A stretch of DNA of 57,255 nt from a bacterium. GTDB taxonomy: Bacteria; Zixibacteria; MSB-5A5; WJJR01. A model generated the notes under the pieces. The model searched no databases. It saw nothing but the letters and a program-made list of their open reading frames with translations, and had not been told where the DNA came from. The stretch spans positions 1-57,255 of the forward strand of contig JAKAKI010000068.1 of the NCBI GenBank assembly GCA_021813505.1, in the 5' to 3' direction. Shown here one piece after another: positions 762 through 50,675 of the stretch. The translations under genes and the position numbers were made by a program. Each line of letters opens with the position of its first letter. The first letter of the stretch is position 1.

Positions 762-1790
762 CTAAGTCCACACCCCCGCAATCGCCTGCCCGCATTCCGG
801 GCATGTCCCATCACTCACGAGATTCTCGAGGACACGGTAGCCGATGCGATGAATCAGGCGTTCGTCGCAGGAAGGGCAATACGTGGATTCTCCATCGTCG
901 CCAGGGACATTGCCGCTGTAGACAAACTGCAAGCCAACGTCGAGGCCGATCTTACGGGCGCGTCTCAGCGTCTCGACCGACGTGCGCGGCAGATCGGTCA
1001 TCTTATAGTCGGGGTGAAATGCAGAGACATGCCAGGGAGTCTCCAATCCGAGGCTCGCTACAAACTCCGCGATCTTTGTTAGCTCTTCGTTCGAATCGTT
1101 CTGAGTTGGTATCACAAGCGTCGTGATCTCAAGCCAGAAGCCGAGTTGTTTGATCAGCTTCATCGCCTCGAGAACCGGCTCAAGCCGCGCGCCCATGATC
1201 TTGCGGTAATGCTCGGGATTGAACGACTTGAGGTCCACGTTGTAGGCGTGAACGTACGGCCGGATAGCCCGTACCGGCTCTTCACAAATGAATCCGTTGG
1301 AGACAAACACGCCACGGATTCCTTCTTCGGATGCGAGTTTGGCGCAGTCGTAGGCGTATTCGTAGAAGATTGTGGGTTCCGAGTAAGTGAATGCGATGGT
1401 CTCCGCACCGGTCTGCTTGGCCATCGCCACAACTTCGCCCGGTGTCACCGCCCGTCCGAACTGTTCGCGGTTCTTCCCCTTGCTCGCCTGCGAAATATCG
1501 TAGTTCTGGCAGAAGGCGCATTTGAAATTGCAGCCGACTGTGGCAATCGATAGCGAGCGGCTTCCCGGCAGAAAGTGAAAGAGGGGCTTCTTCTCGATCG
1601 GGTCGACATTGACGGCGGCGGCGAGGCCGTAGATCAGCGTGTCGAGTTGTCCGCCGTTGTTCTTGCGCACTCCGCACACGCCGTAGAGTCCATTGCCAAT
1701 GTGGCACAGATGCGGGCACAAAGTGCACACGACCGCCTCGGAGGCGCGCGGTTCCCAGAACATCGCTTTGGTGGCAGCAGATTCGGTCAT
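762..1790 (-). CDS. amrS: AmmeMemoRadiSam system radical SAM enzyme
   Basis: 342 residues, usual length for the family. The radical-SAM cluster motif CNFKCAFC is at Cys87, Cys91 and Cys94, following an N-terminal cysteine segment (CTLCPHLC, about residues 22-29) and preceding the TIM-barrel body (FTYSEPTIFYEY, DLKSFN). The C-terminus carries a zinc-ribbon-like CPSC...CPEC pair. These features match AmrS, the partner of AMMECR1 (AmrA) and Memo (AmrB); the reaction of this system is not well established. No amrA or amrB gene is in the window. The gene stands alone, with gene-free intervals of 445 and 260 bases on its two sides, each holding REP-like repeats. Confidence 0.9.
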   Translation of the reverse strand: MTESAATKAMFWEPRASEAVVCTLCPHLCHIGNGLYGVCGVRKNNGGQLDTLIYGLAAAVNVDPIEKKPLFHFLPGSRSLSIATVGCNFKCAFCQNYDISQASKGKNREQFGRAVTPGEVVAMAKQTGAETIAFTYSEPTIFYEYAYDCAKLASEEGIRGVFVSNGFICEEPVRAIRPYVHAYNVDLKSFNPEHYRKIMGARLEPVLEAMKLIKQLGFWLEITTLVIPTQNDSNEELTKIAEFVASLGLETPWHVSAFHPDYKMTDLPRTSVETLRRARKIGLDVGLQFVYSGNVPGDDGESTYCPSCDERLIHRIGYRVLENLVSDGTCPECGQAIAGVWT

Positions 1791-18127: not shown

Positions 18128-20398
18128 GTGCAGTGGGTGAACTGGCTGATCGTCATAGCAGTCTTCTATTTCCTCCTGGGGGCCATTCTTTGGCTTCTGG
18201 GCAGTGTTATTATCCGGGAAAATGCGAAGAACCGTGTCAACCGGGTGACCGGTTTGATGTTGTTCTTCGCCGGTCTGGGGCCGCTGTTTGCGGCCATCGG
18301 CTATGCGATTCTGCCGCCCGGCGGGGCACCGGGCCAGACGCCGCTGCCGGTGTATTACAATCTGTTTTACCTATGGGAATTGTTCTTCCCGCAGCTTCTG
18401 TTCTTTTCGTTTGTCTTCCCGGTTGAGCACCGCTGGGTGGCGCAGTTCCGCCGGACGAAGTACCTGATCTTCACGCCCCACATCTTCCATCTGTTGTTGG
18501 TGACGCTGATGACGCGCCCCAATCTCGGTGGACTGGCCATTCAAACTGACTCTCCGCTGCTTCAGGGACTGCTGACGCCGCTCAATTTCGTTCTGAACTC
18601 GTTCGGGTTTCTGCTCTCGATTCTCTTCGAATTTCACCTGAAGTTCTTTTCCCTGATTAATCTGCTCTACATCGCGGTGGCGATCTGGTCGCTGCGACAG
18701 GGTTACAAGCGCATCACCAATGTCCGCTTGAAAAGCCAGGGGCGGTTTATCCTTGGCGGGATTCTCTCCGCGGTTGGTTTGTACACCGTGGCATTCATCC
18801 TGCCGGCGCTGGGGATCTTCCCATTGGCCGAACCCCTGCGCATTGCGCTGGCGATTCTGGCGCTCCTGACCGGCTCGATCGGGATCGCCTGGGCCATCGT
18901 CCGCTACCAGTTCCTCGATGTCCGTTTGATCGTGCGGCAGTCGCTCGTCTTCTCCACGTCCTCGGCGCTGCTCGTCGGTGTTTACCTGCTGCTGATCACG
19001 CAGGTGTCCGCCTTCATCAAGGACGTCCTCGAAATCCAGACGCCGTTGATCGACGTCGCCTTCATTGTCTTGGTTCTATTGTTCTTCCAGCCCGTGAAGC
19101 ACCGGACCGACGAACTGATTCAACGCCTGTTCTTGCGCGACAAGGCCGATCCCCGCGCGATCTTGGAGTCGTTTTCTCGTGAAATCGCCTCGTTGTTCGA
19201 CATGGATGATCTCAAGAAGAGGATGATTGGAATCCTCACAGAGCAGCTCTTCATCGAACGTGCCTTCTTCGCAACGCGCGACGAGACGAGTAAGGGATAC
19301 GTTCTCGAACTCAAGGGCCTTTCCGATGAATTGTTCAGTGGGGATGATCCGTTTTTCGTTATGGCGCGGGAGCGGGGCCGGCCGGTGGCGTTCGAGGAGT
19401 TTGTCCTGGATCGCCCGCTCACGCCGGCGACCGAAGTGCTCTCTCGCTGGGGATGCCGGCTCGTTGTGCCCATCATCGACCGTGGTGAGCTGACCGCTCT
19501 TCTCCTTCTGGGGGAGAAGGTTTCCGGTTACCGCTACGGCGTGGAAGATTTCCATCTGCTGGCCACGCTGGCCAACCAGCTTGCTGTGGCGCTGACCAAC
19601 GCCGTGCTCTACCGCGAAGCACTGGAAAAGCAGAAGATGGAGGAGGAGCTCAACGTCGCCCGGCAGATTCAGTTGCAGTTGCTCCCGAGCGTTCTTCCCA
19701 TGGGTGAAAGCTATCGCGTCGCCGCTTTTGCCCATCCATCGCGGCAGGTCGGTGGCGACTACTACGATTTCTTCGATTTGCCCGAGGGGCAACTGGGGAT
19801 TGTCATCGCCGATGTGTCCGGCAAAGGGATGGGTGCCGCGCTTTTGGTTTCCCAGTTGCAGGCGTTTCTGAAAGCCGGTGTGCGCAGCCGTCTTCCCATT
19901 CCCAACGTCATGGCGAACACGAATCTTCTAGTGCATGAGTCCACTTCGTCCGAACGGTTTGCGACCCTGGTCTATGCGGAGCTTGACCCGGCTTCGCGCA
20001 GGCTTTCATACTCGAATGCCGGGCACAACCACCCCATCCTGATCCGCCGGGATGGGCAATGCGAGCTTCTGGACTGTGGCGGCCTCGTGTTGGGCGTCAT
20101 GCCCTCGGCGTGCTACGACATGAACCACGTGACCTTGGAAATGGAGGACTTGCTCCTCTTCTACACCGATGGTCTCTCCGAACTGCAGAGTCCCGAAGAA
20201 GAGGAGTACGGCGAGGCGCGCCTGATTCGATTCCTGAAGGAAAACCGGCATTTGGATCCCGAGGAATTGAAGAACCGGCTGGTACGAGAAGTCACTCGAT
20301 TCGCCCTCGGTGCCATCGGTTTCGATGACTTAACCATGGTGATTCTGAAGATGTGCGACGGCCGAACCACCATGCTCTCGTCGGATATGTCGTCTTGA
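18128..20398 (+). CDS. Membrane GAF-SpoIIE protein phosphatase (RsbU-like)
   Basis: 756 residues, GTG start. Residues 1-330 contain about eight hydrophobic helices; about 345-495 form a GAF domain (LVVPIIDRGELTALLLLGEKVSGYRYGVEDFHLL); a short coiled coil (LEKQKMEEELNVARQIQLQLLP) leads to the PP2C SpoIIE domain (QVGGDYYDFFDL, IADVSGKGMGAALLVS, YTDGLSEL, GFDDLTMV) with metal-binding Asp residues intact. It should dephosphorylate the STAS protein encoded upstream in response to a membrane or ligand signal. The input ligand is not evident. Confidence 0.92.
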   Translation: MQWVNWLIVIAVFYFLLGAILWLLGSVIIRENAKNRVNRVTGLMLFFAGLGPLFAAIGYAILPPGGAPGQTPLPVYYNLFYLWELFFPQLLFFSFVFPVEHRWVAQFRRTKYLIFTPHIFHLLLVTLMTRPNLGGLAIQTDSPLLQGLLTPLNFVLNSFGFLLSILFEFHLKFFSLINLLYIAVAIWSLRQGYKRITNVRLKSQGRFILGGILSAVGLYTVAFILPALGIFPLAEPLRIALAILALLTGSIGIAWAIVRYQFLDVRLIVRQSLVFSTSSALLVGVYLLLITQVSAFIKDVLEIQTPLIDVAFIVLVLLFFQPVKHRTDELIQRLFLRDKADPRAILESFSREIASLFDMDDLKKRMIGILTEQLFIERAFFATRDETSKGYVLELKGLSDELFSGDDPFFVMARERGRPVAFEEFVLDRPLTPATEVLSRWGCRLVVPIIDRGELTALLLLGEKVSGYRYGVEDFHLLATLANQLAVALTNAVLYREALEKQKMEEELNVARQIQLQLLPSVLPMGESYRVAAFAHPSRQVGGDYYDFFDLPEGQLGIVIADVSGKGMGAALLVSQLQAFLKAGVRSRLPIPNVMANTNLLVHESTSSERFATLVYAELDPASRRLSYSNAGHNHPILIRRDGQCELLDCGGLVLGVMPSACYDMNHVTLEMEDLLLFYTDGLSELQSPEEEEYGEARLIRFLKENRHLDPEELKNRLVREVTRFALGAIGFDDLTMVILKMCDGRTTMLSSDMSS

Positions 20399-20510: not shown

Positions 20511-21041
20511 ATGACGGACGATATCAAGCTGGGAAACTTTCGGTTTTGCCCATTGTGCAGCGCCAAGCTCGTTGTCCGGGCGGAGAGTCTTCGTGAGCGG
20601 CTCACCTGTCCCGCCTGTGGATACATCTACTACCACAACCCGGTCCCGGCGGCGGGTGGGGTCATTCTCCGCGACGGGCGGGTCTGTTTAGTCCGGCGCT
20701 CAATCGAGCCGCGCAAGGGTGACTGGACATTGCCGGCGGGCTTTGTCGAGTATGACGAGAGCGCGGAGCAATGCGCAGTGCGCGAAGTGGCCGAGGAGAC
20801 GGGGCTTGCGATTGAAATCGCCGCCGTGCATGGTGTCTACGCGGGGTTCGATGATCCCCGGCAACGGGTTGTGCTGGTGTTGTACCGCACGCGGGAGACT
20901 GAAACCCGGACGCCGATCGCAGGTGATGATGCCGATGACGTGGGCTTCTTCGCACCGGATCATTTGCCGCCCAATATCGCGTTCCGGGCACACCGGCAGG
21001 CACTCAGAGATCTTTTTGCACATGAGCGGGTATCGCCGTGA
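20511..21041 (+). CDS. Nudix hydrolase with N-terminal zinc ribbon
   Basis: 176 residues. An N-terminal zinc ribbon (FCPLC at about 13-17, CPAC at about 35-38) is followed by a full Nudix box, GFVEYDESAEQCAVREVAEE then TGL, fitting GX5EX7REUXEEXGU. Zinc-ribbon Nudix proteins include NADH pyrophosphatases and ADP-ribose or nucleotide-sugar pyrophosphatases; the NudC SQPWPFPxS motif is absent, so the substrate is open. It overlaps the following outer-membrane gene by 4 bases. Confidence 0.9.
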   Translation: MTDDIKLGNFRFCPLCSAKLVVRAESLRERLTCPACGYIYYHNPVPAAGGVILRDGRVCLVRRSIEPRKGDWTLPAGFVEYDESAEQCAVREVAEETGLAIEIAAVHGVYAGFDDPRQRVVLVLYRTRETETRTPIAGDDADDVGFFAPDHLPPNIAFRAHRQALRDLFAHERVSP

Positions 21042-22828
21042 GCTTGATGAGACGGGAAGACCAGGAAAACGCGACTTCGGCGCCGCCAGCCTTTCGGGAA
21101 CGAAACGGGCGTGAAAGCGCGCGCGCGGGAGGCCGTGGTCCTGGGATTACGTCGAAGTGCTTCATTTGCACCGCCCTCGTCGTGTTGATCCTCGTTGTAT
21201 CAGCCAATGCGCAAACATCGCGCACGCTCGGTATCCTGACCGCCGACCGGGAGTTTGTCGATTGGCGCGGGACTGGCGGCGATACGCTGCGCGGGAGGCA
21301 CGATTCCTCCGAGGAACTTACCAAGACACTTCACGCCTTCAAGACGGTTTGGGCACCCGATGGGCTTCACACATCCGGCAAGCTGATTCCGCCCACCTCT
21401 CTGACGATGAAGGTAACGGCAGTGACCACGACGCGCGCTGAGGTTGTCTTCGCTGAGGCTGATTCGACCTCCATGCCTGAGGATTTGCTTTGGTCATCGG
21501 GACAGATGGCCACTGTGGCGGCCGGTGATGTGTGGCTGGGCAGCGTGGTGGTGTTTGACGCGGGCGCTACGATTCTGGGCGAGGTGACCGGTGACGTCAT
21601 AGCAATCGGCGGTGATCTGTCGATTGGTGAGGCGGCAACGGTGCGCGGCGACGTGATTTTGGCCGGTGGCACTTTGCGCCAAAGCGGCGATGCCAAGATC
21701 TACGGGCGGGTCTTTTCCCCTGGCGGACATCGGCGGCCCAGATTGACACTCACGCGGGCGTGGGAATTCGAGGATGGCCGGTTCAAATGGGCACCGACTG
21801 TTTCGTACGATCGGGTGGATGGGCTGCGTCCCGGCGCACGTTTGGGATTCCAGCGCAGTCCCTTTACCCCCCGGTTGGAAATCTGGAGTGGCTATGGTTT
21901 CGCCTCCAAGCGGTGGCAGTTCCGGGTGGAGTTGCGGCAGCGGCTTCTGAAGAGCGCTGATCTTGAGGCGGCGGGGTCGATTTTCCGGCTGACCTCGACC
22001 GAGGATGACAGCGTTGTATCGGGGACGGAGAACACAATCTTCGCTGCGCTGACTGGCACGGATTATCGTGATTATTTCGGCGCCGACGGCGGCGAACTGG
22101 CGGTCACGTACAAATACCGCGAACGCAGCGTGCTCACCGTCCGTTACCGGAACATCGACTACCGGCGACTTATGGCGCACCGCGAGCTGTGGCACTTGTT
22201 CCGTGCCGATCATGACTTCCGCCCCAATTTCTCCACTCTGCCGGTGGATTCTGATTCATTGGAGCCCCATGGTCGCGCATCTTCAGCGATAATTGAACTG
22301 GGAATGGTGCCACGTGAACGGAGCGGCACGCTTGTCGGGCTCAATGGGCAGGCGTCGCTGCGGCTGGAAGTTGCCGGTGGTTTGCTCGGTGGGCGTTATG
22401 ATTATCAGCGCTTCATCGCCGATGTATCCGGCTGGTGGGACTCAGGGCGCTGGCATCATGTGCGGCTGCGTGGCCTCTACGGAATTGCCCGCCACGAACT
22501 TCCGCCGAACAAGCTCTTCTATCTGGGCGGGCTGGGAACACTCCCTGGGTATTCTCAGAAATCGCTGCCGGGCGAAGAGGTCTTCCTAGGGCAGGCCGAG
22601 TATCAATTCAACTACTGGAAGAGCAAGCTCGGCGATGCCGCCTTTGTTCTTTTCACTGATGTTGGACGTGCCGCCTCCACCGACCGCTTCTGGCACCTCA
22701 GCGGGGTTAAGGCCGATATAGGCATCGGGATGCAGTTTGCCGGCGCCGTCCGGCTGGATGTCGCGAAGGGCCTCGATGATACCAAGCGCGACATACGTGT
22801 GAGTCTGCGGCTCGCGAGCCTGCTGTAA
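21038..22828 (+). CDS. Bactofilin-like / Omp85-type beta-barrel fusion (paralog 1)
   Basis: Up to 596 residues, GTG start overlapping the Nudix stop. A signal peptide follows a polar leader of about 45 residues (CFICTALVVLILVVSANAQ). Residues about 155-230 are a beta-helical bactofilin-like stretch of short repeats (VFDAGATILGEVTGDVIAIG, GDLSIGEAATVRGDVIL, GDAKIYGRVFS). The remainder is rich in alternating aromatic strands and ends with an Omp85-like terminal barrel (LFYLGGLGTLPGYSQ near the VRGY position, then FLGQAEYQFNYW and FTDVGRAAS). Same architecture as 48183-49730. Expected in the outer membrane with the beta-helix in the periplasm; role unknown. Confidence 0.75.
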   Translation: MSLMRREDQENATSAPPAFRERNGRESARAGGRGPGITSKCFICTALVVLILVVSANAQTSRTLGILTADREFVDWRGTGGDTLRGRHDSSEELTKTLHAFKTVWAPDGLHTSGKLIPPTSLTMKVTAVTTTRAEVVFAEADSTSMPEDLLWSSGQMATVAAGDVWLGSVVVFDAGATILGEVTGDVIAIGGDLSIGEAATVRGDVILAGGTLRQSGDAKIYGRVFSPGGHRRPRLTLTRAWEFEDGRFKWAPTVSYDRVDGLRPGARLGFQRSPFTPRLEIWSGYGFASKRWQFRVELRQRLLKSADLEAAGSIFRLTSTEDDSVVSGTENTIFAALTGTDYRDYFGADGGELAVTYKYRERSVLTVRYRNIDYRRLMAHRELWHLFRADHDFRPNFSTLPVDSDSLEPHGRASSAIIELGMVPRERSGTLVGLNGQASLRLEVAGGLLGGRYDYQRFIADVSGWWDSGRWHHVRLRGLYGIARHELPPNKLFYLGGLGTLPGYSQKSLPGEEVFLGQAEYQFNYWKSKLGDAAFVLFTDVGRAASTDRFWHLSGVKADIGIGMQFAGAVRLDVAKGLDDTKRDIRVSLRLASLL

Positions 22829-23054: not shown

Positions 23055-24845
23055 ATGGCAGATGTAAAAGAAAAGACCGGGAAGATCAGGACGACCGCCG
23101 CGGGAATTCGGCCGGCCCGTCCGACCAGTGCGAATCGCGAAGCAACAGGGCAACGGGAATCGATCTTTGATCGCATGGGAGATTCCGGTTCGGCGACCGT
23201 CGCCACCAATCCGGAGGTCACGACGGGCGACCGCTCAGTACGCGCCCGCGACCTCGAGGCGGTGCTGGATATCTCGAAAGCCATCAACTCAACATTGGTG
23301 CTCGATGAAATCCTGCAGCGCGTGATGCGCCATGCCATTGATCTTCTGCACGCCGAACGCGGTTTCCTGATGCTCCTGGATGACAAGGGGCATCTGCAGT
23401 TCCGTACGGCCCACAACATCCGCAAAGAGGCGCTGGACACCGAGGAGGACTTCCGGATTTCGCGCTCGATTGCCGACCGGGTCGCCGCCCGCGGGGAGTC
23501 CGAGTACACCTCCAATGCGCAGGAAGACCCGCGCTACGCCCACCAGAAATCTGTCGCCGAACTCAATTTGCGCTTCATCATCTGCGTTCCGTTGAAAGTC
23601 AAAGACAAGGTCCTGGGTGTCTGCTATCTGGACAACCAGTCACGTGCCGGCCTGTTCGGAAAGAGCGATCTCCGCCTGTTTGAGCTCTTCGCTGAGCAAG
23701 CGGCCATCGCCATCGAGAACGCCAAACTCTATGAGCGTCTTCTGGCGCTCAAGCGTTACAACGAAAACGTTGTGAACAAGAGCCCCGTGGGTATTTGCGT
23801 CGTCGATGGTGATCTTCGGGTCTTGACATTCAACGACGCCGCCGAGCGCATCCTTCATGCCCCGCATGATACGTGGGATGCGAAGTCACTGGTCGAAGAG
23901 CACATGCCGCTTTTGGACATCATTCCCTCCGGGGACCGGCTCTGGTGGCAGCGGGCGCTCAACGAGGTCATCGAGCGCCAGAAACCGCTGGTGAAGGACA
24001 AGTATTTCGTCACCATCGGCGGCAGCGAGATGGTGCTCTCGATCAAGATCTCGCCCCTCAACGGCGTCAAAGGTGAGCGCCCGAATATCATCGTGGTGGC
24101 GGAGGACATCACCGAGAAGATGATCCTCGAGAAGTATGTGATCCTCTCCGAGAAGATGGTGGCCAAAGGTGAAATGGCGGCTGCCATCGGGCATGAGATC
24201 AACAATCATCTGGAAATTCTCACCGCACATGCCGAGTTGCTGCCGCTGCACATCAAGAACAACCGGATGGAAAAAATCCCCGATAGCTGCGGCAAGATTC
24301 TCGATTCCATCGACCGGATGACCCGGTTCACCCGCGGTCTGATGGACTATTCGCAAGTCGATACGGATCTGGTCGAATACAATCTCCGCGATCTTGTTGA
24401 AGAGCACCTCTTCACGATCCGGCCGCTCCGCCGGTTCGGAACGGTTCACTTTCAGACCGAGCTCACCACGGAAGTGCCGCCGGTCAAGCTCGACGTGGGG
24501 CAGATTCAGTCTGTACTGCTCAACTTGTACAACAATGCCATCGACGCCTGCAAGGAGGGGGAGGCGCCGCGAATCGATATCGCGGTCACCCACCGTGCCG
24601 AGGAGCAGATGGTCGAACTGCGCGTCACCGATTATGGCACCGGGATTTCACCCGATTCGCTGCCGCGCATGTTTGAACCTCACTACACGACCAAGAAAGG
24701 CGGGCATGGCCTCGGATTGGCCAATTGCCGGACGATTGTTCAGAATCACGGCGGGACAATTACGGTCGACAGTGAATTTGGCGTGAGCACGACGTTCACG
24801 GTCCGCTTGCCGGCGCGTCCCGCGTACTCGTCGTTCGAGAGTTGA
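23055..24845 (+). CDS. Soluble GAF-PAS sensor histidine kinase
   Basis: 596 residues with no membrane segment. A flexible N-terminus (about 1-55) is followed by GAF (about 60-225, ending LFELFAEQAAIAIENAKLYERL), PAS (about 235-365, SPVGICVVDGDLRVLTFNDAAERIL), a HisKA helix pair with His380 in AAIGHEINNHLE, and HATPase (N-box NLYNNAIDAC, G1 DYGTGIS, F-box FEPHYTTK, G2 GGHGLGLANC). Ribosome site GAGGAAAC precedes the ATG. No response regulator is adjacent; instead the next gene is a Ser/Thr kinase, so signal output is unclear. Confidence 0.92.
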   Translation: MADVKEKTGKIRTTAAGIRPARPTSANREATGQRESIFDRMGDSGSATVATNPEVTTGDRSVRARDLEAVLDISKAINSTLVLDEILQRVMRHAIDLLHAERGFLMLLDDKGHLQFRTAHNIRKEALDTEEDFRISRSIADRVAARGESEYTSNAQEDPRYAHQKSVAELNLRFIICVPLKVKDKVLGVCYLDNQSRAGLFGKSDLRLFELFAEQAAIAIENAKLYERLLALKRYNENVVNKSPVGICVVDGDLRVLTFNDAAERILHAPHDTWDAKSLVEEHMPLLDIIPSGDRLWWQRALNEVIERQKPLVKDKYFVTIGGSEMVLSIKISPLNGVKGERPNIIVVAEDITEKMILEKYVILSEKMVAKGEMAAAIGHEINNHLEILTAHAELLPLHIKNNRMEKIPDSCGKILDSIDRMTRFTRGLMDYSQVDTDLVEYNLRDLVEEHLFTIRPLRRFGTVHFQTELTTEVPPVKLDVGQIQSVLLNLYNNAIDACKEGEAPRIDIAVTHRAEEQMVELRVTDYGTGISPDSLPRMFEPHYTTKKGGHGLGLANCRTIVQNHGGTITVDSEFGVSTTFTVRLPARPAYSSFES

Positions 24846-24904
24846 AACTCTCATTCGATCTACTTGCAGCCGTGAGCGCGTCATCGGAAGGCCGCGCAGG
24901 CGCC

Positions 24905-27900
24905 ATGAATTCCCAAACGGTCCAAATCGGACGGTTCACCGGAATCCCGGTCGCGGAGGGCGGATTTGCCACTGTGTATCGGGCGTTCGATGATCTGCGC
25001 GGCGTTTCCGTTGCCATGAAACTCGCGCATCCGGATGCGGATGACGCAACAATTGCGTCACTACATCACGAATTCAAACTACTAGGGGAATTCGACTATA
25101 TGCAAGTGCCGCGTGCACTTGAATTCGAGTGGGATCATCGCCGGCCATGTTTGATCACAGATTGGATTGATGGCCCTGAGATTTGGGATCGTTCGCATAC
25201 AAACTCGGTAGAACTCTTTGTGACCTCTCTGCGACAAATCGCCCGTGCATTGACTTTTGTTCACCACCGCGGCTGGGTGCATGGAGATCTCAAACCCGGA
25301 AATTTCCGCTGGGGCGCACCGCGTGCGACAAGTTGTCGGTCAGCTTCTGCCAATGAGGCAGACAGTATCCTCTATCTGCTGGATTTCGGATTGGCGCGGC
25401 CGGTCGGTGATACAGATCGTCCGCGCGGTGCAGGTACGGTTGGATATTACGCGCCCGAGTTTCTGCAGCGGATTCCGGCGGATGGCCGTGCCGATTGGTA
25501 CTCAATCGGGGCGATGCTGTACGAATGGGTTTACGGCCGCCGTCCATTTCAAGCAGAGAATCCTGCGGATGAAATCGCTGGACACTTGGAACAATCACCG
25601 AATTTGGATATGCCATTCGTTCGCTCCGCACCTGAGTGGACTCGTGATGCCATCGCTCGATTGCTTCAGAAGTCACCGGAACAGCGTGGAGACGACGTCT
25701 ACGACTTGCTGGGTTGGCTCGGGCAATTCGATAGTGAATTGTGTCCGGAAGTCATTCTGAATGAGCAGGCGTCGGCGCATTTGAGCAGTGAGTGGCGGCA
25801 GACGGAGGAGCACGATCACGCACTCATCGCGCAGATTGTTGATGACTCGATGATTCACCGGAAGGCGCGGTGGACAATCAGGGCAGACCATGTTGACACA
25901 GACCGGATTGCAAGAGGCATCACAAATGCGGTGCTCGAAAAGATACCGGGCAGCCGGGTCACTTTGGGACAATTGAACACGGCTCCCATTACTTCGGAGG
26001 CAGCCCAGAGTGATATCCAGCAGTTGCGGATTTGCGTCGAAGAGTCGAACGGCGGTCAGGATATCTCGACTGTCGAGTTTGCTCCATTTGCCAACTTGGC
26101 GACTTCGGAATCCGGCCCTTCAGAGGCCGCCTCAGTTTGTTCCATAACACTCCTGCCATGGGGCCTTGAACTAATCAAAGATCGCCTGTCTGGATTGACA
26201 CGAGATGATGCCTTTGTGGCAGCCTCGGCGCCCACGATTCTCCGTGCGACCGGCGGTGTGCCCGCCGCGGTCTTTGACTTTCTGACACGCGTTGTCACGA
26301 CGGGGATGCTGAAGCGGTCTGCCGAAGGATGGCAACTGGATGATTCCGCGATCAGGAATTGGCAAACCTCACCCGAAACGGGCAGAGTCTACAATGAGTA
26401 TCTCGGATCGCTGACCGCAGATGAACGGCGCCTGTGCGATGTTCTTTCCGTGGGCAGAGGTCTGATTCAGTTCTCGCATCTCAGAGAAATAGCGGGACTG
26501 GCTGAGGGAAGATTCGATGTCGCGTTTGGGAGACTAGCCGCCAAAGGAGTGCTGGTTCACGAGTCGCATGACGCGGCTGGCGGCAGTTCGCTGATTGAAT
26601 TGCGACTGAACGGATTGGCGGACGTATGGCGTGCGCAGCTCCCCGAAACTTACCGACGCTCAATTGCTGCCAGCGTTGCCGAACGGCTGAGGAGCATAGG
26701 CGCTGATCGGGATCGCCGGACATTCGAAGTGCTCGCCGAGTGCTACGCTGACTCGGCCCAGTGGGAGCAATGCGTCGAATACTCGGTCGCCGCCGCGCAT
26801 GCCAACATCAAGATCGAAGATCACACCGGGGCCTGGCAGTACATCGGGCTCGCCGAGTCCGCGGCCGGGAATATCTCCGATCAGCGCTCAAACGCCTACT
26901 GGCGGGGACGGGCTCTGATGGTGCGGGGCGACTATCAAAAGAGCGTTGGGCAAATCGACGATGCCCGCCACGTCTACCGCGAAATACTGGCATTGGGACG
27001 TCACCACAAAGACTACCTGTTGCTTGCGGAAACTCTGAAGGATTTGGGGGATCTATACCGGATAACGCGGCAGTTCGAGAAGGGCGTTCGGGTATTGCGA
27101 CGGGCGCGGCAGATGTGGGAGACTCTGGGAAATCCGGAGGAGGCTGCCCGCACCCTCATCAATTTGGGGAATATGTTCTGGATCGCTTCGGATCGCCTCC
27201 AGGCACGGCGGCACTACGAACAAGCACTGGAACTCGCGCGGGCTCTGCAGGCGGACGAACTGGTCGCTTTGATTCTGTCGAACCTTGGCGTGGCTTACAA
27301 GGGCGACCGTGATTACAATCGCGCCGAGGCATTCTATCGTGAATCGCTGGCCATCAAAGAGGCGATGAATTCCCTCTCCGGGGCGGCTCTCACTCTCAAT
27401 AATCTGGGAGTGATTGCATTTGATCAGGGGCGATTGACTGAGGCTGCGCAGTATTTCGAACGGGCCGCCCAGATCAACGCTCGGATGGGAGCGGCAGGAG
27501 ACCTCTTGGGCAATCGCGGGATGCTGATTCACATTGCACTAGAACGAGGGGACCTCCGAACCGTCATCAATGGATCGCTGGAAGCGCTGGCGGATGCAGA
27601 AACACTCGGCGATGCCGCCACTAGTGCGGAATTGCGCGGATTGCTCGCGGAGGCCTATCTTCGAGCCGGAGACTTCCAGCTGTCCTGGACCTATCTGGAG
27701 GAGGCGCGCGACCAGGCCGCCGGACAAAGAAACGACGAGCTTACGGCTCATCTTGGCCTGGTGGCCGCGGTCCGGTATTGGCACTTGGGCCAAGGCGACC
27801 AGGCACTGATGATGCTGGACGAAATCGAACAATATCTGGCCCGTTCGGAATTTCCACACCTCCTAATGGATTCACTTTCACTGCGGATGAGGGCCGCAGT

Positions 27901-28423
27901 CGCCTACGGAAATACCGAACTGATCGAGAGACTTTGGGAGCAGGGACTTCAGTTTGCCACCTCAGTAGGGGCTGGTCACAAACTTGCGCAGTTGGCGTTC
28001 GCCAGACTGCCGGAGAATCCTGACAAGGGATTTCCGGGCGAGGCACACCATCTGGTGTATGACCTACTTCTCAATGACGATGGCTACTATTGGTCCGCGG
28101 CCTTCAAGATGTGGGAGGCACGCAGGTTCGTCGCCGAGGGGAACCTGCCGGCCGCCAGACAGATCGCAGCCGATGCGGTGGCCCGCCTCCGCAAGGATGG
28201 TAACTGGGAGACGCTGTGGAAGGTTTTGACTGTGATGGGCAGGATTGAATTTCAATGTGCTGACTACGGTCCCGCGTTGACCGCGTTCGACGAGGCATCT
28301 CGAATACTGGAGGCAATCTGCAATACCATCGCTGATCCCGCGTGCCGGGCCTCCTATCGTTCGCATCCACTGGCCACCCAGTTATTGCAGGCAAAAGAAC
28401 AGATTCTGGAACTGACCAGGTAA
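24905..28423 (+). CDS. Ser/Thr protein kinase with degenerate central region and C-terminal TPR array
   Basis: 1172 residues from the ATG at 24905; a TTG at 24842 overlapping the previous stop would add 21. Kinase domain (about 5-270): glycine loop AEGGFATVYRA, beta3 Lys in VAMKLA, catalytic HGDLKPGN (Gly replaces the Arg of HRD), DFGLARP and YYAPEF. Residues 290-560 correspond in position to the AAA ATPase of PknK/MalT-like regulators, ending in a winged-helix-like ILRATGGVPAAVFDF, but no Walker A GxxxxGK[ST] exists. Residues about 600-1170 are TPRs (NLGNMFWIASDRLQARRHYE, LSNLGVAYKGDRDYNRAEAF, LNNLGVIAFDQGRLTEAAQY). Likely a cytoplasmic signalling scaffold linked to the histidine kinase before it. 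Confidence 0.88.
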   Translation: MNSQTVQIGRFTGIPVAEGGFATVYRAFDDLRGVSVAMKLAHPDADDATIASLHHEFKLLGEFDYMQVPRALEFEWDHRRPCLITDWIDGPEIWDRSHTNSVELFVTSLRQIARALTFVHHRGWVHGDLKPGNFRWGAPRATSCRSASANEADSILYLLDFGLARPVGDTDRPRGAGTVGYYAPEFLQRIPADGRADWYSIGAMLYEWVYGRRPFQAENPADEIAGHLEQSPNLDMPFVRSAPEWTRDAIARLLQKSPEQRGDDVYDLLGWLGQFDSELCPEVILNEQASAHLSSEWRQTEEHDHALIAQIVDDSMIHRKARWTIRADHVDTDRIARGITNAVLEKIPGSRVTLGQLNTAPITSEAAQSDIQQLRICVEESNGGQDISTVEFAPFANLATSESGPSEAASVCSITLLPWGLELIKDRLSGLTRDDAFVAASAPTILRATGGVPAAVFDFLTRVVTTGMLKRSAEGWQLDDSAIRNWQTSPETGRVYNEYLGSLTADERRLCDVLSVGRGLIQFSHLREIAGLAEGRFDVAFGRLAAKGVLVHESHDAAGGSSLIELRLNGLADVWRAQLPETYRRSIAASVAERLRSIGADRDRRTFEVLAECYADSAQWEQCVEYSVAAAHANIKIEDHTGAWQYIGLAESAAGNISDQRSNAYWRGRALMVRGDYQKSVGQIDDARHVYREILALGRHHKDYLLLAETLKDLGDLYRITRQFEKGVRVLRRARQMWETLGNPEEAARTLINLGNMFWIASDRLQARRHYEQALELARALQADELVALILSNLGVAYKGDRDYNRAEAFYRESLAIKEAMNSLSGAALTLNNLGVIAFDQGRLTEAAQYFERAAQINARMGAAGDLLGNRGMLIHIALERGDLRTVINGSLEALADAETLGDAATSAELRGLLAEAYLRAGDFQLSWTYLEEARDQAAGQRNDELTAHLGLVAAVRYWHLGQGDQALMMLDEIEQYLARSEFPHLLMDSLSLRMRAAVAYGNTELIERLWEQGLQFATSVGAGHKLAQLAFARLPENPDKGFPGEAHHLVYDLLLNDDGYYWSAAFKMWEARRFVAEGNLPAARQIAADAVARLRKDGNWETLWKVLTVMGRIEFQCADYGPALTAFDEASRILEAICNTIADPACRASYRSHPLATQLLQAKEQILELTR

Positions 28424-28450: not shown

Positions 28451-28486
28451 AAAAAAAGGCCGGCCGCCGTTGGAACACGGCGGCCG
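28451..28486 (-). terminator. Rho-independent terminator for the 25-residue ORF
   Basis: On the minus strand a 10-bp stem (28486-28477 with 28470-28461, core GGCCGCCGT/ACGGCGGCC) with a 6-base loop is followed three bases later by seven T residues (28457-28451). It lies about 20 bases after the stop of the small ORF at 28509. Confidence 0.8.
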
Positions 28487-28508: not shown

Positions 28509-28586
28509 TCAACCACCACCGACCTGTGAACCAATCGGAGCGATGATCTCTTCGAGCAACTCAACCTCCAAGGTGTAGATCTCCAT
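28509..28586 (-). CDS. 25-residue peptide, candidate RiPP-like precursor
   Basis: Begins MEIYTLEVELLEE and ends IGSQVGGG. A very strong ribosome site (GGGAGGTGAG) lies before the ATG at 28586, and a good terminator follows, so the ORF is bracketed as an expressed unit. The acidic amphipathic first half resembles a leader peptide and the Gly-rich end a core or cleavage region, but no Cys, Ser/Thr cluster or known RiPP motif is present. About 440 bases upstream on the same strand ends a PqqD/M50/HlyD gene, the kind of protein found in peptide maturation clusters. Function is inferred from context only; a regulatory leader peptide is the main alternative. Confidence 0.55.
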   Translation of the reverse strand: MEIYTLEVELLEEIIAPIGSQVGGG

Positions 28587-28625
28587 CAACTCACCTCCCT
28601 TCTCCGGGTTAAAAGGCGGTTGACT

Positions 28626-28655
28626 GGGCCGGGCACCACCCCGGCCCGTTTTTTT
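28626..28655 (+). terminator. Rho-independent terminator for the kinase transcript
   Basis: GGGCCGGG 28626-28633 pairs with CCCGGCCC 28640-28647 (6-base loop), followed by G and seven T. It is 200 bases past the kinase stop, so the kinase mRNA 3' end is antisense to the whole 25-residue ORF. Confidence 0.8.
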
Positions 28656-28854
28656 ATAGGCATGTAAGTTTGAGTAGTCATTATCCCCGGTCCATGAGGA
28701 TGCGAATCTCACCATTCACAAATACACTCCTGTCAGATCCACCTGTCTGACCGGTCCTATGTGCGGCTTCCCGCATGTTTGTAGCAGGTAATGTTGGGCT
28801 AAACAACAGTATCCGCGCTGATCGCGAATCGCTGTCGGCCCGATTAGCCACTGT

Positions 28855-28883
28855 TATTATGTGCGACAAAATTAGTTTTGTCA
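28855..28883 (-). promoter_or_regulatory. Minus-strand promoter upstream of the 25-residue ORF
   Basis: Reading minus: TTGACA (28883-28878), 17-base spacer, CATAAT (28860-28855). Start expected near 28848, giving a leader of about 260 bases. The spacer contains GACAAAA-CTAA-TTTTGTC, a 7-bp inverted repeat that could be an operator or hairpin. A second, weaker TATAAA box is at 28658-28653. Confidence 0.6.
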
Positions 28884-29009
28884 AGAGGAAGATTGATCGT
28901 CCGGGTCAGGAAGGCCTTCAAAATCGGTTTCCACTACAACGGGTTGTTGTTTGAGCGTGCCAGCATACAAAATGAGAGGGATGAGAGCCCTGGCGGAGGC
29001 AGCAGCCAC
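28881..29009 (-). CDS. 42-residue small protein coupled to the M50/HlyD gene
   Basis: GTG start at 29009 with GGGAGG nine bases upstream; that ribosome site overlaps the stop codon of the M50/HlyD gene, so translation is probably coupled. The first half is hydrophobic (ARALIPLILYAG), the second acidic (VETDFEGLPDPDDQSSS). Not recognised. It could be a second peptide substrate, a small membrane partner, or spurious; the tight spacing and strong ribosome site argue for a real gene. Confidence 0.5.
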   Translation of the reverse strand: MAAASARALIPLILYAGTLKQQPVVVETDFEGLPDPDDQSSS

Positions 29010-29023
29010 TATGACAGACCTCC

Positions 29024-31336
29024 CTACCACCATGACCAGAACTCCACACGGATAAAGTGGACTGCCCGCCGGGTGATGATGGTTAAAAGCGAGCTCCTGC
29101 CGCAGGAAATTTTGGAATACCCCGACATTCCCGGCTTGAGAGTCAGCGAGGGATTCTCGATTTCGGTCAGCACCCTGAATTCGTGGTCGCCGCTGGTGGT
29201 GTCAGCGTTCGAGGCCACGTAGGTGACGTGCCCCCGAAACTCATCAAAAGGCAGGGCACGAACCTTCAACGAGACCGGGAAGCCAGCCTGAACATCGGCG
29301 ATATCGTTTTCCTCAACAGCCAGTTGGACACGGACAGGATCGAGCTTCGAGATTTCCGCCAGGACCCCGCTACGATCGACCCGGGTAGCGATTCCGTCGA
29401 TGGGTGAACGGAGGGTTGACGCCTCGATTTGTGACCGCAGGAAATCGATCTTGGAGTCTAATCCTGTGATTTGAGCCTCTTTGATCGCCAGTTCTTCTGC
29501 CTTTGGTTTGGAGATCAGAAACGCCAGGGCACTTTGCTTCCCCTCGAGTTTGGCCTGAAGGACCGACTGGTCGGTCTTGATCGCTTCATACGCATCCTTG
29601 GCGATCAGGCTGCGTTGGATCAATTGCTCCGAGCGCTGAACCTCCAGCCGCTTGTTGTCCAATTGAGCCCTGATCTCGGAGATTTCTGCCCGCAAGCCCT
29701 TTACCTGGTCCTCTTTGGGACCGGAGAGGAGCAGATTGCGCTCGGCCGTGATCCGATCTCGTTGCGACTGGGCGTCTGCCAGATCCGCCTGGTAGCGGTT
29801 GCAGGAAAGAACCAGGAGCGTGTCGCCGGCCTTGACCGTGGCGCCCTCCCGAACATGGAGCGAGTACTTGACCGCCGAAAACTCCGCCGATCCGGCCTGG
29901 AGGACCGATTTCTCCCTCCGCTCGGTCTGTGCGATGAAGAGCTCCGTTTCAACCGCGTCGCGGGAGAGCGAGGAGACGGTATAACGGGCCGAGGGGTCCA
30001 CCCGGCAGACCGATCCGACATGCCGCTCGACTTTGATAACCGCAAGCAGGATGACCAGGATTACCAGGCCGCCCCAGAATATGGCTGGTTTCCGCCAGCG
30101 GCCCCTTGCACTACCGGCCTCGGAGCCGCCTGCCTCGGTCGTTTTCGATCGTTCGGATGTCTCGGACCTCGATCCAATTGCCATTGCCAGGATCAACCCC
30201 ACGACGAGCACATCACCGGCCATACCCCAGTGCTCGTTAACGAGTCTGACCAGGTGGTACAGAATCCATCCAAGTAGCACACCTGTGTAGATCAAGGCTC
30301 CCACACCGTACCAGCGGAATACCCGCCGCAGCCGGGGCGTCAAGTCCCGCGACGCACGGAGCCGTCCCGCCACCCATTCCCCCAGAATGTCCCGCCAGTA
30401 TGCCATCGCCTTGGATCGTAAGTTGGGAATCTGCAGCCAATCGGCAAGGATGAAGTAGCCATCCAGACGAATCATCGGATTGAGGTTGAACAGGAAAAGC
30501 CCCAAAGACAGGGCGGTCGAAACATAGAGGAAGCTGGCCGGCAGTGTCCCCGGGGCGGCAACGCGCCACAACAGAATCAGAATCGCGGTCAACAGGCCCT
30601 GGAAGAACAGGCCCGCAAATCCAACGAAGACCCGCGAACTCCGTTTGGGCAGCATGTACGAATCGGAGAGGTTGCAGTAGAAGCAGGGCTGGAAATACAG
30701 CAGGAGGAAGCCCATCTCCTTGACAGAGCCGCCATGGTACTTGAGCGTGAGCGCGTGCCCGAATTCATGTACCAGTCCCACCACGAGAATGGACACGAAC
30801 AAGACCGGAATCGAGGAAAGACGCCAAAGGTGGGCGATTGAGGCGCCACCGAGGCCTTGCTCACCCACTGCGATCAGGACAGCCAGAAGCATCAGTGCCA
30901 GCGCCGCCCCGATTCCAGCCGGGGAAAAGAGAAACCGAATGCGCGGCAGCCAGCGAGACAGCCAGGGATCGGGGTTAAACGCTTTCAGGCGGATCGTGCC
31001 GATGGAACGGCGATGCCCGGCCGTCGACATGCGCCGCAGGTGTGGCAGTTCACGCTCGAGTGCGGTCCCCTCGAAGAAGAGAAGGCGCTCCATCCGGGCG
31101 TAGAAAGCTGCGGCTGCCCCGGCGCTAATCGCAATTCCGAAGCGTTCACTGGTCAACGCTGCCGCAGTATCCGGCGAGGTCTCCCCATCGGCGCGCGTGA
31201 GCAGGTAGTATTCCGGCGCGCGCAGGCGGAAGAAGCGATTTGTCAGCGGGTCTTTGACAGTATACACCGGATGATCGCCCTCTGCTGCGGAGGTGACGAT
31301 CAGGTCCGATCTCAATTTGGGAAACGATTCGCTCAT
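29024..31336 (-). CDS. PqqD-like / M50 metalloprotease / HlyD fusion membrane protein
   Basis: 770 residues from the ATG at 31336 (a TTG at 31369 lacks a ribosome site). Domains: N-terminal PqqD-like winged helix (about 10-95, VYTVKDPLTNRFFRLRAPEY); membrane domain with zinc motif HEFGH (His190, Glu191, His194) and the third-ligand motif LDGYF (Asp292), as in site-2 proteases and YydH-type peptide proteases; a last membrane helix (GGLVILVILLAVIKV); and a periplasmic HlyD adaptor with a long coiled coil, lipoyl half-motifs (VREGATVKAGDTLLVL, IDGIATRVDRSGVLAEI) and beta-barrel. The design suggests peptide recognition, cleavage and hand-off for export. It follows moeA by 72 bases; no modifying enzyme or outer-membrane channel is adjacent. 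Confidence 0.85.
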   Translation of the reverse strand: MSESFPKLRSDLIVTSAAEGDHPVYTVKDPLTNRFFRLRAPEYYLLTRADGETSPDTAAALTSERFGIAISAGAAAAFYARMERLLFFEGTALERELPHLRRMSTAGHRRSIGTIRLKAFNPDPWLSRWLPRIRFLFSPAGIGAALALMLLAVLIAVGEQGLGGASIAHLWRLSSIPVLFVSILVVGLVHEFGHALTLKYHGGSVKEMGFLLLYFQPCFYCNLSDSYMLPKRSSRVFVGFAGLFFQGLLTAILILLWRVAAPGTLPASFLYVSTALSLGLFLFNLNPMIRLDGYFILADWLQIPNLRSKAMAYWRDILGEWVAGRLRASRDLTPRLRRVFRWYGVGALIYTGVLLGWILYHLVRLVNEHWGMAGDVLVVGLILAMAIGSRSETSERSKTTEAGGSEAGSARGRWRKPAIFWGGLVILVILLAVIKVERHVGSVCRVDPSARYTVSSLSRDAVETELFIAQTERREKSVLQAGSAEFSAVKYSLHVREGATVKAGDTLLVLSCNRYQADLADAQSQRDRITAERNLLLSGPKEDQVKGLRAEISEIRAQLDNKRLEVQRSEQLIQRSLIAKDAYEAIKTDQSVLQAKLEGKQSALAFLISKPKAEELAIKEAQITGLDSKIDFLRSQIEASTLRSPIDGIATRVDRSGVLAEISKLDPVRVQLAVEENDIADVQAGFPVSLKVRALPFDEFRGHVTYVASNADTTSGDHEFRVLTEIENPSLTLKPGMSGYSKISCGRSSLLTIITRRAVHFIRVEFWSWW

Positions 31337-44871: not shown

Positions 44872-45422
44872 TCTGTATCTGCACCAAGGTATGGCGGACA
44901 AGGGGCTTTTGGCCCCTTGTTTGTTTATGGATACTTGTGGTTCGAGTGTTCTCGCGCGTGGGATCGCCCTCACCCCCGACCCCTCTCCCGGAGGGAGAGG
45001 GGAGACAAACTCAGAACTCACAACCGTTTCACGCCACGGTAGCTTGCCACCAGACGGAGAGGGGAGAAAAACCCTCAGGACTCACAATTTCGACATCTCG
45101 CGGGAGCTCCCCTAAGTCGGAGAGAGGAGAAGAACTCTCACAACTCACAACCTTGACACTTCACGGCAGCTTGCCCCCTCTCCCTCTGGGAGAGGGTTGG
45201 GGTGAGGGCGTCTCCGCGCGCGAAGTGCCCCGGAATCCCACAATCGGCAAACTTCTTACATTGGTGGGGTTCTTCACGGCAGGGTGGCGTCGTTCCCGAC
45301 GTAAGCGAATGCGCCCTTCGGGCGCACGCGGCCGAGGGCGGTCGCGCCACATTGGGGCTCTCACAGATTCTGGCCCTTCCGCCCGTGTTGTATCCGCCCC
45401 CCGCGAGCGTTATTTTGTTTTA
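44872..45422. other. Intergenic region dominated by a MITE-like element
   Basis: No gene; open frames here read through repeat DNA. 44965-45210 is the element described separately. The remaining 45211-45422 is unremarkable apart from a small inverted segment (GGGCGCA near 45310-45330). No preQ1 riboswitch was recognised before queE. Confidence 0.5.
44965..45210. repeat. MITE-like element, family C, with internal tandem copies
   Basis: Ends are inverted: it opens CGCCCTCACCCC and closes GGGGTGAGGGCG, and each end carries its own inner palindrome (CTCTCCCGGAGGGAGAG and CTCTCCCTCTGGGAGAG). Between them the segment GGAGAGGGGAGA...ACTCACAA recurs three times, beginning at 44994, 45056 and 45119, a degenerate tandem array with a 62-63-base period. 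Related element at 53649-53768. Confidence 0.8.
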
Positions 45423-46079
45423 ATGGCCGTGTCCGAACCATCGCTCGTCGTGAATGAAGTGTATGCTAGTATCCAGGGCGAGTCGTCGTATGCCGGGTTG
45501 CCGTGCGTGTTCGTCCGGCTCACCGGATGCAATCTGCGCTGCACCTATTGCGACACGGCGTACGCGTTCTACGACGGTGAGCGGCGAACGGTCGCGAGTG
45601 TGGTCGAACTGGTCCGCGGCTATGGCATTTCGCTTGTCGAGATCACCGGCGGTGAACCATTGGTGCAGAAGGATTGCGTGGTACTGGCGCAGCAGCTTCT
45701 GGATCTGGGATTCAACGTGCTGATCGAGACCGCCGGAGCCTTGCCGATCGATGTGCTCCCGGCGGGTATCATCCGCATCATGGACATCAAGTGCCCGTCA
45801 TCAGGTGAGTCGGATAAGATGGACTGGAGCAACATCGGCCATCTGACAGCGCGCGATGAAGTCAAATTCGTGATTGGGAATCGCGAAGATTACGATTGGG
45901 CGCGTGGCGTGATTGCCAAGCACGCGCTCCACGAAAAATGCGCGGTTCTCATCTCGACGGTCTTTGGTGCGGTCCCTTCGAAGGACGTTGTCGAATGGAT
46001 GCTCGAAGACCGGTTGCCAGCACGGTTTCAATTGCAGCTTCACAAGTACATATGGGATCCCAAGGAGCGCGGCGTATGA
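45423..46079 (+). CDS. queE: 7-carboxy-7-deazaguanine synthase
   Basis: 218 residues from the ATG at 45423. Radical-SAM cluster CNLRCTYC at Cys36, Cys40 and Cys43, preceded by SIQGESSYAGLPCVFVRL, which is typical of QueE, and ITGGEPL in the SAM site. It converts 6-carboxy-tetrahydropterin to 7-carboxy-7-deazaguanine. The stop overlaps the queC start. Confidence 0.95.
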   Translation: MAVSEPSLVVNEVYASIQGESSYAGLPCVFVRLTGCNLRCTYCDTAYAFYDGERRTVASVVELVRGYGISLVEITGGEPLVQKDCVVLAQQLLDLGFNVLIETAGALPIDVLPAGIIRIMDIKCPSSGESDKMDWSNIGHLTARDEVKFVIGNREDYDWARGVIAKHALHEKCAVLISTVFGAVPSKDVVEWMLEDRLPARFQLQLHKYIWDPKERGV

Positions 46080-49754: not shown

Positions 49755-50675
49755 ATGCCTCCAATTCTCGAAATTAACCGGCTCCAAAAACACTACGGCA
49801 GGTTTGAAGCACTGCGAGGGGTCGACTTGATGCTGAGTGGACCGGGAGTCTACGGCTTTCTGGGTCCCAATGGAGCGGGGAAGACGACTACGATCAAGCT
49901 TATCGCCGGGCTTCTCAATCCCACTGCTGGGTCGGTGAAGATCGATGGGATCGATATCGCGGCTGATCCCGTGGACGCACGCCGGCCGCTGGGCATCATG
50001 ATGGAGACACCGGCCTTCTATAACCAACTGACGGGCCGGGAGAACCTTCAGCTATTCGCCCGCCTGGGGGGCATTGGCGACAGTTCATCGATTGAGCAAT
50101 TGCTCGCACGCGTCGGACTCACGAACAAAGCCAATGAACGCGTGTCATCCTATTCACGTGGCATGCGGCAACGGTTGGGGCTGGCGGCGGCGCTGCTCGG
50201 TGACCCGAGGCTGGTCATTCTCGACGAACCGATGAATGGCCTCGATCCGTCCGGAATCGTGGAAATGCGGGAGTGGCTCGCACAGATGGCCCGACAGGAG
50301 GGGCGGGCGGTTTTGATGTCGAGCCATCAGATGGGTGAAATGGAACGCATTTGCGACAGTTTCACCATCATCAACCGGGGCGCGGTTGTTGCATCGGGTG
50401 CGGCTGCCGACCTGACGCAATCCCGAGCGACTGTCTCCCTGCGGGTATCGGATTCGGAAACAGCAGCGAACGTGCTGCGGTCGATGCCCGGGATCTCATT
50501 GGTCGAGATCGTTGGTTCGGATCAGCTCCGCGCGGAATCGGCGGAGTGCTCGACCGGGGAGATTAATCGGTTCCTCGTGAACCACAACATCGACGTACTT
50601 GAGATCACTACATCAACTGAGTCGCTCGAAGAGATCTTCTTCCGCCTGGTTGGGAGGGATTCCAATGTGGCGTGA
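49755..50675 (+). CDS. ABC transporter ATP-binding protein
   Basis: 306 residues. Walker A GPNGAGKTT, Q-loop METPAFYNQLTG, signature SYSRGMRQR, Walker B LVILDEP, H-loop SSHQ. The C-terminal extension of about 80 residues is usual for CcmA/NatA-type exporters. Overlaps the permease gene. The ABC-2-like partner suggests export of a lipid, polymer or drug. Confidence 0.93.
   Translation: MPPILEINRLQKHYGRFEALRGVDLMLSGPGVYGFLGPNGAGKTTTIKLIAGLLNPTAGSVKIDGIDIAADPVDARRPLGIMMETPAFYNQLTGRENLQLFARLGGIGDSSSIEQLLARVGLTNKANERVSSYSRGMRQRLGLAAALLGDPRLVILDEPMNGLDPSGIVEMREWLAQMARQEGRAVLMSSHQMGEMERICDSFTIINRGAVVASGAAADLTQSRATVSLRVSDSETAANVLRSMPGISLVEIVGSDQLRAESAECSTGEINRFLVNHNIDVLEITTSTESLEEIFFRLVGRDSNVA

Follow-up and report, generated by a model that had tools for sequence, protein, structure and literature searches.

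In the daptide pathway, leaders carry the motif ELExMEAP and are cut after it, the protease joins a RiPP recognition element (RRE; RiPP, ribosomally synthesized and post-translationally modified peptide) to an M50 domain, and a paired RRE protein, MpaB, needs the leucine at position -7 (PMC10036551, PMC12338566). In SHP/Rgg signaling, the site-2 protease (S2P) Eep takes part in the maturation of a peptide of 8 residues (PMC3150281). An M50 protease, YydH/LiaK, is also thought to mature a short peptide in the epipeptide system yydFGHIJ. Here we describe a locus of the little-studied phylum Zixibacteria, carried on a 57,255-nucleotide stretch (the window; contig JAKAKI010000068.1 of assembly GCA_021813505.1, positions 1 to 57,255, one contig of a 3.89-Mb metagenome-assembled genome, or MAG), in which a single protein fusing a PqqD-like RRE domain, an M50 protease and an HlyD adaptor is encoded next to a conserved gene for a 25-residue peptide that appears to be its substrate. 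A search of the literature on Zixibacteria RiPPs, PqqD-M50-HlyD proteins, LEPR-XLL and RRE site-2 proteases found no account of this system.

The top NCBIfam match of the fusion is the daptide intramembrane protease NF041824 (daptide_HExxH; MpaP/DapP), at 215.6 bits over residues 8-387, under the family cut-off of 300. The likeness extends to the N-terminal RRE fused to the M50 domain, to short precursor ORFs (open reading frames) that in some genomes occur several per locus, and to an LE(x3)AP leader in which L(-7), E(-6), A(-2) and P(-1) are spaced as in daptides (residues numbered backward from the predicted cut, with P as -1), although position -4 is Arg or Lys here and Met in daptides. 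It is because the leader keeps these four residues at daptide spacing that a cut after Ala-Pro is predicted. Unlike the daptide protease, however, the protein described here carries a fused HlyD part, and the peptides have no invariant C-terminal Thr and a tail of usually 6-9 residues. The daptide enzymes (oxidative decarboxylase, aminotransferase, methyltransferase and ABC transporter) were absent from the identified gene clusters of ortholog loci, which are annotated in part. YydH, to which the first-pass annotation of the window had compared the protein, is the more distant relative, since the YydH/LiaK family NF058609 scores 60.8 bits against a cut-off of 225, and neither a radical-SAM epimerase nor an ABC transporter lies at this locus. 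Since the C-terminal Thr and linked modifying enzymes of daptides, and the epimerase of epipeptides, were looked for and not found, the sequences point to a variant of RRE-guided peptide maturation that is neither daptide nor epipeptide. The locus resembles SHP/Rgg/Eep, its nearest functional parallel, in having a tiny precursor gene beside a gene for a TPR protein that may act as regulator, and in the predicted M50 (S2P) maturation and predicted mature peptide of about 8 residues (SHP: DI[I/L]IIVGG). It differs in that a Ser/Thr kinase-TPR protein and a histidine kinase stand where SHP systems have a DNA-binding RRNPP regulator, in a protease equipped with RRE and HlyD parts, and in an envelope of Gram-negative type.

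The fusion protein and the 25-residue peptide

The PqqD-M50-HlyD fusion had been recognized in the first-pass annotation, and the protein is indeed encoded by one intact ORF, with Pfam matches to Peptidase_M50 and to HlyD_D23/HlyD_3 and an LDGY motif at residues 291-294 (Table 1). Residues H190, E191, H194 and D292 are invariant in 42 fusion orthologs, and the protease is therefore presumed to be active. The N-terminal domain is predicted to have the RRE/PqqD fold. A Pfam scan of the window's own fusion gave no PqqD match, and Pfam PqqD matched the N-termini of 31 of 46 orthologs (best E 9.9e-5); an AlphaFold model of the first 120 residues (pLDDT 79) has the strand and helix order of an RRE, b-b-b-a-a-a, and the best PDB matches of this model in Foldseek are leader-bound lasso RREs (TbiB1 5v1u/5v1v, and 6jx3; probability 0.93-1.00, E 0.013-0.1). 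An hmmsearch with the N-terminal alignment against PDB sequences returned nothing significant. The model of the whole fusion has a mean pLDDT of 81 and a pTM of 0.54, and the fusion of the nearest relative is 95% identical.

Table 1. Features of the candidate peptide maturation locus and its kinase neighbors, by position in the window
Feature	Position	Strand	Basis
RRE(PqqD-like)-M50-HlyD fusion, 770 aa	29024..31336	-	single intact ORF; Pfam, NCBIfam, AlphaFold
Predicted RRE/PqqD-like domain, residues 5-90	31067..31324	-	ortholog Pfam scan, predicted fold, PDB fold match
HEFGH zinc/catalytic motif, residues 190-194	30755..30769	-	invariant residues across 42 orthologs
HlyD adaptor part, residues 415-749, then C-terminal helix 750-769	29090..30094	-	Pfam, AlphaFold
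25-aa precursor peptide MEIYTLEVELLEEIIAP / IGSQVGGG (slash, predicted cut), LExxxAP leader, 8-residue tail	28509..28586	-	conserved family, coding constraint
Shine-Dalgarno region AAGGGAGGTGA	28591..28601	-	sequence; strong Shine-Dalgarno also ahead of ortholog ORFs
Promoter-like site TTGACA-17-CATAAT for peptide gene	28856..28884	-	11/12 consensus matches
Intrinsic terminator-like hairpin after peptide gene	28461..28486	-	relatives have a similar stem and T run
GC-rich hairpin in 5' untranslated region of peptide mRNA	28625..28648	-	conserved stem region across family genomes
Ser/Thr kinase (HGDLKPGN, DFG) with large TPR region, probable receptor or effector	24842..28423	+	convergent; near peptide in most genomes examined
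GAF-PAS-HisKA-HATPase histidine kinase	23055..24845	+	overlaps Ser/Thr kinase gene start

The 25-residue ORF, to which a promoter, a strong ribosome site and a terminator had been assigned, has all three as a promoter-like site, the AAGGGAGGTGA sequence and a terminator-like hairpin, and the ORF itself is conserved. The loci of fusion orthologs also hold a short ORF bearing this motif, in most cases on the strand of the fusion and some hundreds of bases downstream of it, and usually behind a strong Shine-Dalgarno sequence. A profile built from 33 such ORFs found the family in 103 of 132 phylum genomes (Zixibacteria-type MAGs), far above chance, and matched most of the 58 genomes of the class set, the matched genomes including about 20 that had contributed no seed. 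The peptides are 22-33 residues long, with the leader consensus Y-x-L-x-[VI]-E-x-L-E-x-[RK]-[IV]-A-P. L(-7), E(-6) and P(-1) are invariant in 64 of 64 distinct peptides, A(-2), E(-9) and L(-12) each occur in 62, and position -4 is Arg or Lys in 61. Synonymous changes prevail in most close pairs that differ at several codons (for example 7 to 0 between genomes G003 and G004); the exceptions are G015-G049 (0 synonymous to 2 non-synonymous) and pairs with G005 (for example 3 to 5), where most of the changes fall in the tail. That the 25-mer is a real gene is, on this comparison of sequences, well supported. NCBIfam matched none of five peptides searched, its LEPR-8K family NF012209 included.

Upstream of the peptide, the CTTGAC of the promoter-like site is found in 6 of 6 aligned family genomes, and conservation of the 5' untranslated region is limited to its last part, which holds the hairpin and the Shine-Dalgarno sequence. 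The sole Rfam match of this region was SorX, sub-threshold, at 28591-28652(+). Read on the + strand, the hairpin at 28625-28648 is a stem followed by T7 and could terminate the kinase transcript, which would cross the entire peptide gene antisense before ending there; the T run is not conserved in relatives, the stem region being conserved.

A 42-residue ORF "coupled" to the fusion (50 residues from its ATG, 28881-29033, overlapping the fusion end) had been offered as a second small gene and is rejected. It is absent in orthologs at 52-56% identity, in which the ATG within TGGTCATGGTGG reads TCGTGG, and between the two closest genomes its codons differ synonymously in 3 cases and non-synonymously in 21. 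The stretch covers the promoter region of the peptide gene, with its TTGACA promoter-like site. Thus the expectation that the small ORFs would stay conserved was borne out for the 25-mer but not for the 42-residue ORF, which drifts.

The tails are the variable part of the family. They have 6-9 residues in 58 of the 64 distinct peptides (mode 8), often read S-x-G-G-Q, and have GGQ, GG, D, E or S as their usual endings. Their composition bears on whether the peptide gives rise to a RiPP or a peptide-derived cofactor, with enzymes encoded elsewhere modifying the tail and the fusion doing no more than take off the leader, as happens for daptides, PQQ or mycofactocin. RiPP pathways are the usual setting of RRE domains, the daptide protease is the closest match of the fusion, conservation across the phylum would suit a cofactor, and Ser is frequent in the tail, along with Gly-Gly. 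However, the tails vary in both length and sequence and have no modifiable residue in common (just 2 of the 64 contain Cys), no recurrent modifying gene was recognized beside the fusion or the unlinked peptide at the sampled, partly annotated loci, and the constant neighbors are kinases; this explanation is accordingly considered unlikely.

In some genomes the peptide gene is repeated, with 4 copies at locus L042 (8482-9572) and 7 at L045 (8456-10162), the leaders being similar and the tails different. Loci L048 (8300-8680) and L049 (7839-8321), labeled Aminicenantes or uncultured, hold the fusion with 3-4 near-identical peptide copies on the opposite strand, MAKKSTKKVVKLNVERLEKRIAPTRAAIAMG; the kinase pair was not in the stretch read at either. 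The arrays at L042 and L045, and the analogy to YydF and daptides, would be in keeping with a secreted antimicrobial or toxin-like short peptide produced by the RRE-M50-HlyD unit. Such a role is nonetheless very improbable, as no immunity gene linked to the peptide or the fusion was recognized, the family is conserved across the phylum, and the tail is very short, Gly-rich and weakly hydrophobic.

Co-occurrence and the kinase neighbors

Among the 132 phylum genomes, 96 hold both fusion and peptide, 24 hold neither and 12 are discordant (5 and 7), for a Fisher p of 1.7e-15 in a test that treats genomes as independent and leaves relatedness uncorrected. Joint absences are spread over several families of the 58-genome set. 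The association extends to genomes in which the two genes are apart, since the peptide lies within 9 kb of the fusion in only 59 of the 96. A substrate relation between the fusion and the 25-mer is well supported by these distributions and by the leader motif.

The most constant neighbor of the peptide is a convergent pair of genes, a Ser/Thr-kinase-TPR protein and a GAF-PAS histidine kinase, a link that had not been drawn in the earlier annotation. Peptide and histidine kinase lie within 9 kb in 79 of the 90 phylum genomes that have both, and the histidine kinase is present in 31 of the 37 genomes whose peptide gene lies apart from the fusion, with the peptide gene next to the kinase in 26. 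Neither kinase has predicted transmembrane (TM) segments, and no DNA-binding domain was found by Pfam in either. From this linkage, a role common to the peptide and the kinases is moderately supported.

It might be argued that peptide, fusion and kinases are no more than old neighbors without a common function, since partial synteny also extends to the genes of a ClC-like channel, an Omp85-like protein and a SpoIIE phosphatase. Shared synteny of this kind is scarcely probable, because peptide and fusion are found together even where they are unlinked and several families lack both, and because the leader matches a motif type that accompanies RRE-M50 proteins in two further settings.

Other neighbors were noted in the same survey, which covered recurrent gene clusters at fusion ortholog loci, part of them annotated. 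A SpoIIE-type phosphatase (18128-20398), which has a GAF domain and several TM segments in its N-terminal region, is partly syntenic with the kinase pair and is a possible further part of the pathway. An Omp85-superfamily beta-barrel gene (21038-22828) recurs beside the kinase pair in many relatives, and a Nudix gene further along is partly syntenic. A gene for a ClC-type chloride channel that carries CBS domains, its family judged from sequence, often lies directly upstream of the fusion (about 20 relatives, such as L058 and L044). The claim that radical SAM and ABC exporter genes are missing holds at the locus, though not for the window, which has two radical-SAM genes, 762-1790(-) and 44937-46079(+), and an ABC ATPase gene, 49755-50675(+), all more than 13 kb from the fusion; none was recognized among the fusion's recurrent neighbors.

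LEPR-type proteins beside distant homologs

On plasmids of proteobacteria, distant homologs of the fusion (26-33% identity) adjoin large proteins with N-terminal LEPR-type motifs. Such proteins were found in Thalassospira, Pontibrevibacter and Pseudosulfitobacter (LEPR-XLL), in Niveispirillum and Azospirillum (LEPRMMFDAA, LEPRYVFDGAA) and in Eleftheria (LEARLMFDAA); in Alisedimentitalea the motif is missing from the annotated start of the giant protein, and for several other distant homologs the stretch read was unannotated or held no giant gene. The LxVExLExRI of the peptide is strikingly like LHVEPIEPRI of the Thalassospira giant protein, and more generally the N-terminal [LIM]E[PA]R of these LEPR-XLL/DUF4347 proteins, for example LHVEPIEPRILLSAD, resembles LTVEVLEARIAP. 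The two settings differ in that the motif there stands on proteins of thousands of residues, accompanied by a second HlyD and often by TolC or SecA/helicase-like genes, and here on a 25-mer. At plasmid loci L136, L137, L142-L145 and L150 of Pseudomonadota, the giant protein, a second HlyD and the PqqD-M50-HlyD fusion are arranged like an operon, variably with a gene for an MFP (membrane fusion protein), TolC or a SecA/helicase-like protein. These gene groups have the look of an export system, so far undescribed, that would serve giant proteins whose N-termini are of LEPR type. We infer from the sequence resemblance and the linkage that RRE-M50-HlyD proteins may read an N-terminal LE-x-R type motif, on giants in Pseudomonadota and on a free 25-mer here.

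The same observations could suggest that the fusion is part of a protein export machine, the peptide being a regulatory pseudo-substrate that stays inside and controls the fusion while other cargo with an N-terminal LEPR-like motif is exported; the 25-mer is barely more than such a motif. That arrangement seems distinctly unlikely, in that a search with NF012209 (LEPR-8K) found no candidate cargo in the own genome and one protein above cut-off in the 58 class genomes, the strong phylum matches of the peptide profile are short ORFs, and the peptide is linked more constantly to the kinases than to the fusion.

A proposed maturation and signaling pathway

Together with the comparisons above, these findings lead us to propose a peptide maturation and probable signaling module. 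The 25-mer precursor would be made from its own promoter, and its leader, YxLxVExLExRIAP, would be bound by the cytosolic RRE domain of the fusion. The M50 domain would then cut after Ala-Pro to free a tail, usually of 6-9 residues and here IGSQVGGG, which would leave the membrane enzyme toward the periplasm, the HlyD part helping its passage across the envelope. Modification would not be needed for these steps, and the tail is probably unmodified. The mature peptide would act with the Ser/Thr-kinase-TPR protein and the histidine kinase, either after re-import, as for SHP/Rgg/Eep, or by being sensed indirectly. A role as a signal is made more likely by the kinase pair being the most constant neighbor of the peptide. 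The recognition, cleavage and export of a short peptide suggested from the window alone have thus fared unevenly: recognition and cleavage are well supported for the 25-mer from its sequence relationships, and export is plausible from the HlyD part, no exporter having been found.

Several points weigh against the complete pathway. No ABC exporter, oligopeptide importer, or Opp or PptAB-like gene is linked at the loci, genome-wide presence not having been counted, and kinases lacking predicted TM segments would sense an exported peptide only through its re-import or through another receptor. One core family conserved throughout the phylum would be unusual for a pheromone, and the co-occurrence counts are phylogenetically non-independent. 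The peptide is away from the histidine kinase in 4 of 42 class genomes, and loci L042 and L045 hold a histidine kinase with no Ser/Thr kinase in the stretch read. On balance, the module taken with all its steps has about an even chance of being correct.

A wider and more tentative proposal, one that we regard as doubtful, is that signaling of this kind runs through the phylum, an RRE-guided S2P with an HlyD part cutting unmodified micropeptides that are read by the kinase pair, and that in other phyla the same machine reads LEPR-XLL on giant secreted proteins. Pheromone-like peptide signaling is established mainly in Gram-positive bacteria. If the proposal is true, a conserved micropeptide that has its own RRE-protease and a pair of kinases throughout a phylum still uncultivated would represent a new signaling logic, and the use of an RRE where there is no modifying enzyme would widen the known roles of these domains. 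The link between RRE-M50-HlyD proteins and LEPR-type N-termini would also give the unexplained LEPR-XLL motif a testable role, that of a recognition tag read by an RRE.

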